In this document: positions 27,388 to 32,076 of the stretch, piece after piece
How the letters are laid out: every line of letters begins with the position of its first letter
Position numbering within the stretch: the first letter of the stretch is position 1
NCBI GenBank assembly: GCA_947585915.1
Contig: CANPXJ010000005.1
Location: 1-37,323 of the forward strand
DNA: 37,323 nt
Reading direction: 5' to 3'
Source: an uncultured Bacilli bacterium
GTDB lineage: Bacteria > Bacillota_I > Bacilli_A > RF39 > UBA660
The notes under the pieces: model-generated
What the model was told of the DNA's origin: nothing
The model's database searches: none
The model's input: only the letters and a program-made list of their open reading frames with translations
Translations under genes and position numbers: made by a program

Positions 27388-28458
27388 TTATTTTAAAATT
27401 TTTAAAATATTACAATTACTATAAGATAAATAACCTTTATAACTAGCTTTAACTCTAACTAATTTTTCTTGATTATAAATTTTTAAATTTTTTATTTTCC
27501 TTTTAATTCTTCTTTTTGTCTGATTATTTATTCTAATTATTAATTTCTTATTTTTTAACTTAAATCTATAACCTAAAAATCCGACTCCTTTATTCAAATT
27601 ATAAATATTAGTTTTTTTATTTACTTCTAATTTTTCTTTTATTTTTCTTAAACATTCTTCTAAATATTTTTTATCATCGTGAAAAATAATAAAGTCATCC
27701 ATATATCTTATATAATATTTTAATTTTAAGTTTTCTTTAATATAATGATCCACTTCATTTAAATAATATATAGCAAGTATTTGACTACTTAAATTGCCTA
27801 TCGGTAATCCTTTATTATCTTGATATATAGGTAATTCCTTGATTTGCTTTTGTTCTTCCTTGTTTTTTATTTTTTTTATTACCCTATTTTTTTCTTTAAC
27901 TATTTCTTCATTAACATATTTTTCATTACTACTTTTTATTATATTAATCACTAATTTATATAAATTTTCATCTTTTATTAATTTTCTTAATTTATTTAAT
28001 AAAATAGTATGGTCAATATTAAAAAAGTATTTTTTAATATCTATTTTTAATACATAGATTTCTTCATTATTTAATTTTATTTTATTAATATATTTTTTAG
28101 CTAAATATAATCCATATGAGGTCCCTTTGTTTTTTCTTGTTGCTACATTAGAATTAATAAGTAATGGTTCTATTAACGGAATTAAAACGTAATTTGAAAC
28201 TAAATGGTTAACTATTTTATCATTTAATTTTTCGCTCATTATAATTCGATATTTTGGTTCTTTAATTATGAATATATTATATTTACCATGCTTATATTTG
28301 TTAGATTTTAAAATATTTAATATATTTAAAAGATTACTCCCTTTAAAACACTCAAATTTGCATATCTTATTCCTGTTTTTAGTCTTTACTCTAATATGTT
28401 CATATTCTTTAATTATTTTATCAAAATCAACTATATCATTATAAACTATCTTTTTCAT
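27388..28458 (-). CDS. DGR-type reverse transcriptase
   Basis: KGTSYGLYLAKKYI, KIDIKKYFFNIDH, GLPIGNLSSQILAIYYLNEVDHYIKE, YYIRYMDDFIIF (YMDD), GVGFLGYRFK. Confidence 0.93.
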   Translation of the reverse strand: MKKIVYNDIVDFDKIIKEYEHIRVKTKNRNKICKFECFKGSNLLNILNILKSNKYKHGKYNIFIIKEPKYRIIMSEKLNDKIVNHLVSNYVLIPLIEPLLINSNVATRKNKGTSYGLYLAKKYINKIKLNNEEIYVLKIDIKKYFFNIDHTILLNKLRKLIKDENLYKLVINIIKSSNEKYVNEEIVKEKNRVIKKIKNKEEQKQIKELPIYQDNKGLPIGNLSSQILAIYYLNEVDHYIKENLKLKYYIRYMDDFIIFHDDKKYLEECLRKIKEKLEVNKKTNIYNLNKGVGFLGYRFKLKNKKLIIRINNQTKRRIKRKIKNLKIYNQEKLVRVKASYKGYLSYSNCNILKILK

Positions 28459-28792
28459 TTTTTAATAACCCATAACTTATTTTTCTTATTTCTAATATAT
28501 AATTGGTTATGCTTTCATACTTTTTCTTTTTTATATACCCTCTATTATATATTTCTAAAAGAAAAAAATCACACATAGACAATTTTATTAAAATATTTTT
28601 TATGTTGGTTTTTCTAATTTTTAAATTGTCACTATTAATCATATAGCTATAAGTTAGTTCTATAATAGCTAACATATTTTCTTCAACATGAGTTTTTAAT
28701 ACTATTTCTTTTCTAGGAATATTTATAAGCATTTTGTTTATATACCAATATGTTTTTTGAACACTTGCTAACAACTTGAAATTATTATTCAT
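28439..28792 (-). CDS. avd: Avd-like DGR accessory protein (four-helix bundle)
   Basis: 117 aa helical, adjacent to and overlapping the RT start, ...YSYMINSDNLKIRKTNIKNILIKLSMCDFFLLEIYNRGYIKKKKYESI. Confidence 0.75.
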   Translation of the reverse strand: MNNNFKLLASVQKTYWYINKMLINIPRKEIVLKTHVEENMLAIIELTYSYMINSDNLKIRKTNIKNILIKLSMCDFFLLEIYNRGYIKKKKYESITNYILEIRKISYGLLKNEKDSL

Positions 28793-28956
28793 TTTATCAT
28801 TCTTTCCTTAAAAAAAGTAATGAGTTTATCAGGTTCATTACTTTTGTAATACAGCAAGTAGATATCATCTACTTTTTTATTTTTTAGCAAAGATAACGTC
28901 TGTATTATGTTTTTTGAATTACTTTGAATAATCCAAGGAATAAATCTTGTTTCCAA
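28789..28956 (-). CDS. candidate small ORF (55 aa from TTG) translationally coupled to avd, or remnant of a longer gene
   Basis: LETRFIPWIIQSNSKNIIQTLSLLKNKKVDDIYLLYYKSNEPDKLITFFKERMIK*; its TGA overlaps the avd ATG as ATGA; no ATG start so absent from ORF track. Confidence 0.4.
   Translation of the reverse strand: METRFIPWIIQSNSKNIIQTLSLLKNKKVDDIYLLYYKSNEPDKLITFFKERMIK
28810..28845 (-). terminator. terminator/attenuator-like hairpin between TR and avd
   Basis: minus strand AAAAGTAATGA-acctgataaac-TCATTACTTTT with T7 tract; 11-bp perfect stem. Confidence 0.55.
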
Positions 28957-29097
28957 TCTAAATTATATTTTGATATTATATCTAGATTTCCAATTGATTA
29001 AATAACAATTGGCTACTTCCTCTGTTTATTAGATACTATCCAATAAAGCTCGGTATAGTAATATAAATAAATTATATTAAAATATATTAGTAGGAAT

Positions 29098-29199
29098 CTG
29101 GCACGACGGCGTTTGTATTGTTAGTATTGTTGTTGTTGATGTTGCCATTGTTGCCTTCGAATACATTAGCATTATTATTAGAATTGTTAGGCGAAAGGC
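29098..29199 (-). repeat. DGR template repeat (TR)
   Basis: minus strand ctttcgcctaacaattctaataataatgctaatgtattcgaaggcaacaatggcaac...aacgccgtcgtgccag; AAY-rich, matches VR except at adenines and three codon-sized indels. Confidence 0.93.
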
Positions 29200-29288
29200 C
29201 ACAACGCGGAAAAAAGTCAATTAATAGATTTATCCCTATATAAACCTCAGTTTATACCTTATTAATCATTTAATATATTTTAATTCGT

Positions 29289-29316
29289 CCAAACTTTTGA
29301 CGGAGCAAAAGTTTGG
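29289..29316. repeat. perfect inverted repeat (hairpin) just downstream of the VR-protein stop codon
   Basis: CCAAACTTTTG-acggag-CAAAAGTTTGG, 11 bp (12 with flanking t-a). Confidence 0.75.
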
Positions 29317-29328
29317 AAACGCTTGCTC

Positions 29329-30849
29329 TTAGTCTACTTGAAATGGACTTTGTTCACTCCCATCTCCAGTGGTGATTAGTGCACTAGTGGATAGATTGAT
29401 AACTGGCACGACGGCGCCCGTACCGCCAGTACCGTAGTCGGTGCCGCCACTGTAGCCATAGCTGCCTTCGAAAACACGAGCAGTATTACCAGAAGAACTG
29501 TAAGGCGAAAGGCTCCACCACCAATAATTATGATAAATATAGTTTGTTTCATCTGCATACGGCTCGGACCTTGATAACCCTGCCATATTCATTTCATCTG
29601 CTGTTATTAATCCTATCTTCGTTTTATATATCCCTCCATAATCTCTTGGTGAACCATTTTGATTATTTGGCTCTGGACATTTTAAACTTGGTTCTTTTTT
29701 TGTTACTACTCGGTCATATGCTCCGTAAAATAAATAACCACTAGTTGTAGCTCCTTCGTTTCCACTTCCATATGAGGTATCATTGCAGAAATATCCTTGG
29801 GCTATTTGATCGTTTACACTATTTAAATTATTACTATACCATGTCTCTAGTGCTGTCTTTATATTACTATCTTGTCCTCCAAAGTTTTCATTTGAAAACT
29901 CACCACTTTTATATATTACCTCGCATGGATTATTTTTTGTACAACTATTTGTATTGTCATATGTGTATCCTGTATATTTTCCAGCATGAATCTCTTGATT
30001 TGCTACATAATCATTGAATTTTGAATTAGACTCGATTTTATCATTTAAAATAAGTCTTATTGTTCCATCTCCATTGATTCGTACTATTTTCCATTCCTTT
30101 CCTGCAAATTCTACGTTATTATTTAGTTCATTTCTATCTCCTCGAAAATAGTAACTTGTCCCTTGATCATCTTCGGCTTTATATATTCCACTTCCTGTGT
30201 TTGGAGTTACACCTTCATTTAAAGAAGCTATTGATATATCTGCTGGCTCTCCCTTTGCAAAGTCTGGTCTCTCTTCTTTTATTGTATTATGGGCGAGTAT
30301 TGTTCTTAAGTTTCCACTTGCATTATTTATTTGTACTATTCCACTGAATGTTTTTCCTTGATTATAGTTTTGGTTACTTCCTATCTCTTTAAAATGTATG
30401 GTTAATGTATAACTATGTTTCTCTTTACTTTTTATCCCTATATTCCCTAGTATTGTCTCTGATCCACTTTCTGGAGCTTGACTATACTCTTTTACTTCTT
30501 TATTATCTCTTTCTATTTTATATTCTAACTCTTCTTTTTTTTCATATGTATTTATTATTTCTATCATATCTAAATTATATATTGTATCTAATGTCCCTGT
30601 ATTTTCTACTGTAAAATTTATTGTATGTATTGCTCCTGGTAAGGCATTTTCTAGACTTGTTATTGTTGTTCCATCTAGTTTTAAGGACATTGTTCCTGAT
30701 TGTACTTTTATTTCTTTTGCTTCTTCATTTCCTTTTACTTTTAATGTGAAGTATGCATATGACACACTTATTGTTATTACTATTATTAATGTTATTATTG
30801 CTATTACTATTTTTTTATTCTCTTTTATATTTTTTATTTTATCCGACAT
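29329..30849 (-). CDS. DGR target: secreted/surface protein with SipW-type signal region and C-terminal C-type-lectin-like variable domain
   Basis: N-term KIVIAIITLIIVITISVSYAYFTLKVKGNEEAKEIKVQSGTMSLKLDG; C-term NYWWWSLSPYSSSGNTARVFEGSYGYSGGTDYGTGGTGAVVPVINLS contains the VR. Confidence 0.88.
   Translation of the reverse strand: MSDKIKNIKENKKIVIAIITLIIVITISVSYAYFTLKVKGNEEAKEIKVQSGTMSLKLDGTTITSLENALPGAIHTINFTVENTGTLDTIYNLDMIEIINTYEKKEELEYKIERDNKEVKEYSQAPESGSETILGNIGIKSKEKHSYTLTIHFKEIGSNQNYNQGKTFSGIVQINNASGNLRTILAHNTIKEERPDFAKGEPADISIASLNEGVTPNTGSGIYKAEDDQGTSYYFRGDRNELNNNVEFAGKEWKIVRINGDGTIRLILNDKIESNSKFNDYVANQEIHAGKYTGYTYDNTNSCTKNNPCEVIYKSGEFSNENFGGQDSNIKTALETWYSNNLNSVNDQIAQGYFCNDTSYGSGNEGATTSGYLFYGAYDRVVTKKEPSLKCPEPNNQNGSPRDYGGIYKTKIGLITADEMNMAGLSRSEPYADETNYIYHNYWWWSLSPYSSSGNTARVFEGSYGYSGGTDYGTGGTGAVVPVINLSTSALITTGDGSEQSPFQVD
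29403..29513 (-). repeat. DGR variable repeat (VR) in the 3' end of the target gene
   Basis: shares ctttcgcct, ttcgaaggc and gccgtcgtgccag constant blocks with the TR; substitutions at TR adenines. Confidence 0.93.
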
Positions 30850-30872
30850 AGTTATTACTCTCCTTAATTATA

Positions 30873-30904
30873 ATTATACGTCTACTTGCCCCCCCCCTAG
30901 TCAA
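30873..30904 (-). promoter_or_regulatory. promoter of the DGR target with a G9 tract in the -35/-10 spacer
   Basis: minus strand TTGACT (30904-30899) a GGGGGGGGG (30897-30889) caagtagacg TATAAT (30878-30873); SD AAGGAG before ATG 30849. Confidence 0.7.
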
Positions 30905-30948
30905 GCTTTTTTTCAAAAAAAAAGAAATTTCACAAATTATTTCAAAAT

Positions 30949-32047
30949 TTAATGAAACTGTTGTAGCATAGCAACCATAAAATCTAAAATGTCTCCATCT
31001 AACACTTTATCGGCTTGACTAGTTTCAAAACCTGTTCTAGTATCTTTAACCATAGTATATGGTTCTAAAACATAACTTCTTATTTGACTACCAAAATCAA
31101 TATTAGTACTAACCCCTTTAATTTCATTTAATTTAGCTTCTTGTTTATTTAATTCTATTTGATATAATTTGCTTTTTAAGATATTCATAGCAATTTCTTT
31201 ATTTTTAATTTGGCTTCTTTCGTTTTGGCAAGTAACAACTGTTTTAGTTGGTAAATGCGTAATTCTTACAGCTGAATCAGTAGTATTTACCCCTTGTCCC
31301 CCTTTACCACTACTTCGATAAACATCAATTTTTAAATCTTTTTCATTAATTTCTACTTCAATATCTTTAGAAAACTCAGGAGTTATAGTTACAGAGGCAA
31401 ATGAAGTATGCCGCCTTGCTCCGGAATCAAATGGAGATATTCTAACTAAACGATGGACTCCACTTTCACCTTTAAAATATCCATAAGCATACTCACCTTT
31501 TATTAATATTGTTACGCTTTTTAAACCGGCTTCTTCCCCTTTTTGCATTTCAATAATTTCGTAATTATAATTGTTTTTTTCACAAAATCTAGTATACATT
31601 CTAAAAAGCATATCTGCCCAATCACAGCTCTCAGTTCCTCCAGCTCCGGGATGAATTTCTAAATAACAATTTAAGTCATCATATTTTCCTGATAATAAAA
31701 CACTTATCTCTAAATCATTAAGTTCCGTTTTTATTTCTTCAAGGCTTTTTATAATTTCTTCTTCTAAATCTTTATCTTCTTCTATTTCTAATAAAGTTAA
31801 AAGTTCGGCTATACTTTTTATTTTGGTGGAAACATCACTAGTTTTTAAAATTTCTTTTTTTAAATTATTTACTTTAGTTGTAATATCAGTTGCCTTGGTT
31901 GTATCATCCCAAAAGCCTTCTTCATTCATTTTATTTTCTAGTTCTTGTAATTTTTTCTTTTTGCTTTCTAAGTCAAAGAGACCTCCCGATATCTTCTTCT
32001 TTTTTTCTTAAATTTTCTAATTTTATTTTTAATTCTTTTATTTCCAT
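30949..32047 (-). CDS. prfB: peptide chain release factor 2 with programmed +1 frameshift
   Basis: zero frame ATG 32047 MEIKELKIKLENLRKKEEDIGRSL then CTT TGA C (TGA at 31975-31973) with upstream GGGAGGT; downstream frame ...HPGAGGTESCDWADML, SSGKGGQGVNTTDSAVRITH. Confidence 0.95.
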
Positions 32048-32076
32048 TCCACTCACCTTGTTCATTTATATAGCTA

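Follow-up and report, generated by a model that had tools for sequence, protein, structure and literature searches.

A G9 tract in the promoter spacer of a DGR target gene, probably one of many slippage-tuned surface-gene promoters in an uncultured Bacilli bacterium

The target gene of a DGR in an uncultured Bacilli bacterium has a run of nine Gs between the predicted -35 and -10 hexamers of its promoter. Judging from sequence comparisons within and among genomes, we consider this tract to be probably a simple-sequence contingency element in a sigma-A type promoter, and to belong to a slippage-tuned set of surface genes that overlaps the DGR targets.

The window, by which we mean the whole stretch of 37,323 nucleotides that was analysed, contains the following features of interest, all on the minus strand. 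The promoter and start elements were read from the sequence, and the G9 run was in addition identified by a pattern count.

30899 to 30904, minus strand: -35 hexamer TTGACT
30898, minus strand: single A between TTGACT and the G9 run
30889 to 30897, minus strand: G9 homopolymer within the 20-nt spacer between -35 and -10
30879 to 30888, minus strand: CAAGTAGACG, between the G9 run and the -10 hexamer
30873 to 30878, minus strand: predicted -10 hexamer TATAAT
30867 to 30872, minus strand: second TATAAT, directly after the first
30860 to 30865, minus strand: Shine-Dalgarno sequence AAGGAG, 10 nt ahead of the ATG
30849, minus strand: start ATG of the DGR target
29329 to 30849, minus strand: DGR target, a variable protein of 506 aa with an N-terminal membrane/SipW-TasA-like (Peptidase_M73) region and a C-terminal variable domain
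29402 to 29513 (approximate), minus strand: VR, matching the TR except at adenines and for small indels
29098 to 29199, minus strand: TR core, 102 nt with 40 adenines, from the TR/VR comparison
28439 to 28792, minus strand: bAvd-like accessory protein, 117 aa (PF22296, 3e-6; NF033474 DivGenRetAVD, 6e-5; both below curated cut-offs)
27388 to 28458, minus strand: DGR reverse transcriptase (RT), 356 aa, with YMDD (PF00078, RVT_1, 1e-17)

Read along the minus strand from 30904 to 30873, the promoter elements are TTGACT-A-GGGGGGGGG-CAAGTAGACG-TATAAT, followed by AAGGAG and the ATG of the VR protein. This agrees exactly with the preliminary description of a promoter with a close Shine-Dalgarno sequence, and the coordinates confirm the 20-nt spacer given there. 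The -35 and -10 hexamers were assigned by consensus only. Runs of G/C in the window have lengths of 1 to 5, plus one single run of 9; the three overlapping matches to G7+ all belong to this run, and three matches were obtained in 0/100 shuffles. An RNA element in the leader was rejected, as no Rfam match was found at 28700-31100. The upstream neighbour of the DGR target is prfB, apparently with its usual programmed-frameshift site (CTTTGACTT context, at about 31929-32052 on the minus strand, ahead of the ORF at 30949-31929).

The locus combines a YMDD RT and a TR/VR pair with adenine-specific differences, together with the bAvd match below cut-off, as found in DGRs. In the window gene, TR-to-VR changes affect 23/40 adenines versus 1/62 other positions, and the corresponding figures for the paralogs L090 and L091 (contigs 16 and 27) are 23/40 and 0/62. 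Pooled over 15 alignable, non-redundant paralogs, the change rates are 55% for A, 16% for C, 9% for G and 7% for T. In the VR protein, a SipW-dependent match was weak and below cut-off, a Pfam search found no domain over the C-terminus, and the AlphaFold model (mean pLDDT 34) is too poor to recognise a C-type-lectin or Ig-like fold. Carriage by a virus or plasmid was rejected, because the VR protein has no relatives in IMG/VR or in plasmids. Viral contigs do contain matches to the promoter-like pattern.

A tblastn search with the VR protein identified 46 matches in its own genome. Among the 10 paralogs with a readable start, 8 have the G9 promoter (the exceptions being C17:6202 and C37:1050); many other copies are broken by contig ends. 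Four VRs, that of the window gene and those of three paralogs, differ essentially only at TR adenines, and all four genes have G9 promoters. The RT is the only match of its kind found in a search of the genome; together with the adenine-directed changes in several paralogs, this indicates that a single RT has diversified several genes in trans, whereas the more distant paralogs have drifted. The family is also expanded in G001, whose 1.0-Mb genome gives 65 tblastn matches and whose poly-G promoters (L361, L378) have TTGCAA as their -35 element.

Poly-G promoters are not confined to the VR family. The genome (1.39 Mb, 27% GC, a draft of 93 contigs) contains 37 runs of G8 to G10, namely 31 of G9, 4 of G8 and 2 of G10, whereas a first-order model based on the window predicts about 1.7 runs of G8+ and 0.3 runs of G9+. 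The earlier remark that no other C/G run is this long is therefore correct for the window, but not for the genome. A -35-like and a -10-like hexamer flank 35/37 runs. Most sites belong to one of two promoter classes, within which the flanks are similar. The downstream products are mostly exported or anchored, and include type IV pilin-like, pectate-lyase-like adhesin, Cna_B, Big_2 and WXG100 proteins in addition to the VR paralogs, which as anchored variable proteins form the largest group. One product does not fit this pattern, namely L041, which was judged by eye to be acetyltransferase-like. The remaining two G9 runs have no promoter around them and lie within a coding region or at its end (L034, near 2076-2084 on the plus strand; L043, on the minus strand, at 1968-1976 of the reverse complement). 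One of them is found where a gene ends (3') just ahead of a multi-pass membrane ORF, the other within a coding frame, and both are possible translational contingency loci.

Two further observations concern the surroundings of the tracts. The promoter L050 (C42:13706-13728) is chimeric, being of the window type through the G9 run and of the other class thereafter, with an 11-bp spacer, which suggests recombination within or beside the tract. In addition, five poly-G tracts (L036, L042, L044, L050, L059) have TTTGCAAATGTATA at a distance of 40-49 nt on their upstream side, and a longer form of this sequence has a one-mismatch match near the left end of the window, at 62-77; it is perhaps a recombination site.

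In order to describe the distribution of the layout, other genomes were scanned. A G7+ run followed by TATAAT was found in 7/8 other genomes of the genus, and the stricter pattern TTGACA...G7+...TATAAT in 32/246 genomes of the family, representing 27/150 genera, with 0 matches for the reversed-pattern control. The tract abuts the -10 hexamer in most genera and is nearer to the -35 in others, as in the window; this shift in position identifies placement in the spacer, and not a fixed operator, as the common feature. Among the matches listed in a scan of named genomes, the layout extends to Clostridia and further taxa, and at least 49 of the 82 sites are followed by an ORF whose start is hydrophobic or signal-like. 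Named and apparently cultured carriers include Pumilibacter muris CLA-AA-M08 (L274), Hydrogenoanaerobacterium saccharovorans An564 (L252), Streptobacillus notomytis (L247) and Helicobacter sp. 16-1353 (L255).

Poly-G promoters are also found where no DGR was detected. Within the genus, the VR family is present in all genomes compared (G001-G008), an open RT gene is found in G001, G002, G003 and G006 and a broken one in G005 and G007, and the genus genome search found no RT in G004 and G008. An exclusive coupling of the two systems was rejected, since poly-G promoters occur in four genomes without an RT match (G004, G025, G032, G043) and also on non-DGR genes. As such promoters are found both with and without a DGR, the arrangement looks like an overlap of two separable systems on the same genes rather than a dedicated composite. 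The pairing of poly-G tract and DGR on one gene, as first described, is real, but the tract is not special to the DGR target, which shares this promoter type with a set of about 35 and with genomes in which no DGR was detected.

Spacer lengths of poly-G promoters differ from those of ordinary promoters. In three genus genomes, exact TTGACA...TATAAT promoters that lack a G run most often have a 17-bp spacer (47/88), a length seen in only 1/49 of the poly-G promoters (Fisher P ~8e-11, though the sites are related to each other). In named genomes, the broad scan gave a 17-bp spacer for 6/82 poly-G sites among the matches listed. In most species the spacers of the assembled poly-G promoters are concentrated at 18-20 bp (mostly 19 bp in G000 and G002), and in G003, G032 and G040 at 14-16 bp. 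The majority state in each assembly may be away from the optimum, and hence mostly OFF, or G-tract DNA may move the optimum to 18-19 bp. In Neisseria, the porA promoter has its highest activity near 18 bp, so the departure from 17 bp should be read with care. With assembled spacers clustered at 18-20 bp, the near-optimal 16-18 nt that, according to the earlier description, a loss of 2-4 Gs would give does not imply that the gene is then ON.

One poly-G locus in G002 (L342, about 7869-7841, minus strand), ahead of a DGR-adjacent target, has an interrupted tract, GGAGGGGG, and a spacer of exactly 17 bp (TTGACA-ATAAGACATGGAGGGGG-TATAAT); siblings with the same flanks are mostly G10 at 19 bp. The TR/VR pair of G002 shows mainly adenine changes (14/39 A versus 5/73 others). 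The interrupted tract is a possible natural locked promoter on a core DGR target.

Tract lengths were compared between promoters with identical flanks. They differ in 75/204 pairs from the genus and its near relatives and in 26/48 pairs from a second, separate set of other genera (for example G9/9/9/10/10/11). One genome per species was used. Paralog pairs report on evolution and not on switching in a clone, and many promoters are copies of one another, so that pair counts are not independent. Such differences at identical flanks indicate that tract length changes faster than flank sequence. A flank-anchored search in the own genome (TTGACANTTNNTTTTA...TATAAT) identified 20 sites, every one of which has a tract (G6 at one site, G8 at two, G9 at sixteen and G10 at one). 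The window promoter and its closest copy in the same genome, L037, are both G9, so that the expectation of varying tract length is borne out among relatives but not for this pair. A constant spacer maintained by compensating tract and flank lengths found no support, as no negative correlation between the two was seen. That slippage is high for want of mismatch repair was rejected: MutS is present in 8/9 genus genomes, the exception being 67% complete, and mismatch repair is therefore not obviously lost, a point against the slippage reading.

The observation that 31/37 tracts in the own genome are exactly G9 counts against a switch, since classical contingency loci are usually less uniform. It would fit a fixed promoter element under stabilising selection around G9, in which poly-dG helix geometry makes 18-20 bp work, or in which a regulator acts on a long spacer, as MerR-type activators need. 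Spacers of 18-20 bp in many genera and the coherent gene set point in the same direction. We nevertheless consider such an element unlikely, because the differences in tract position and flanks among genera are incompatible with a fixed operator, promoters with identical flanks have tracts of different length, and three genomes have their clusters at 14-16 bp.

Copying without function, in which duplicating surface genes carried a G-run promoter along with them and the run was merely tolerated, would account for the similar flanks within the two promoter classes. We regard it as quite improbable, given that the tract is also found at unrelated genes and flanks, that the 27 genera have different flanks, and that long G runs are otherwise rare in a genome of 27% GC. 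An artefact of assembly or composition is hardly credible. The genome is a 93-contig draft and several tracts are near contig ends, but the window tract is well inside its 37-kb contig, and the layout recurs in many independent assemblies with a reversed-pattern control at zero or near zero.

Together, length variation, conserved placement in the spacer and surface-gene content make slippage-driven spacer variation the best explanation. The slippage interpretation of the preliminary description is partly supported by these three features and by the Neisseria-type architecture, but variation of the window tract itself was not seen. Replication slippage would add or remove Gs in the tract, each gain or loss would change the spacer by whole base pairs, and promoter strength would thereby be reset in a heritable, reversible and random manner. 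Some 35 promoters genome-wide, mostly driving exported or surface proteins, would be subject to such changes. One DGR diversifies several paralogs of an anchored protein in trans, which would alter what the protein binds, and the poly-G spacer would set whether or how strongly each paralog is expressed. We infer that the length differences arise by slippage and influence transcription, and that combining the two systems may bring some benefit. That the two form a two-layer surface repertoire, with the trans-acting DGR rewriting the binding faces of paralogs and slippage picking at random the members displayed, is a tentative extension, to which we give somewhat less than an even chance.

If correct, promoter-spacer phase variation would extend to a large part of the surface proteome in gut Bacillota that are mostly uncultured, and nature would offer a case in which the choice of expressed genes and directed changes of their sequence may concern the same receptors. 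Literature searches found no description of promoter-spacer phase variation in this group. They also found no paper joining DGRs with homopolymer promoter switching, in agreement with the earlier description, whose author was not aware of such a pairing on one gene, though coverage was partial and this is weak evidence. A global DGR survey does not mention promoters or phase variation (PMC8144416).

The mechanism has known counterparts. In Neisseria fetA and porA, a homopolymer lies between -35 and -10 and its length sets spacing and transcription (PMC5320596). The promoters described here share with porA, opc and fetA a G/C homopolymer in the -35/-10 spacer. Neisseria opc is of the same spacer-homopolymer type. 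Unlike the handful of genes in that Gram-negative genus, the set reported here, known from its sequences, comprises about 35 promoters in one 1.4-Mb Bacilli genome and serves multigene surface families. In Treponema pallidum tpr genes, a promoter poly-G tract varies in length within isolates and affects promoter activity, transcription starting at the fourth base after the tract (PMC7864442). Both systems have poly-G in the promoter of surface-protein paralogs, but the tpr tract is just upstream of the transcription start, whereas here it lies between the predicted -35 and -10. To our knowledge, no DGR acts on the tpr genes. The TvpA family of Treponema denticola has one RT/TR and up to seven dispersed surface-protein targets, in a paper where the word 'promoter' is absent (PMC4891356). 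Our system resembles it in combining one RT/TR with several dispersed surface-protein VRs, and differs in the size of its VR family, which runs to tens of proteins; many of these have poly-G promoters, and near-pure adenine changes are seen in at least four. Compared with these systems, the class of mechanism is known, and its scale, host group and overlap with DGR targets appear to be new.
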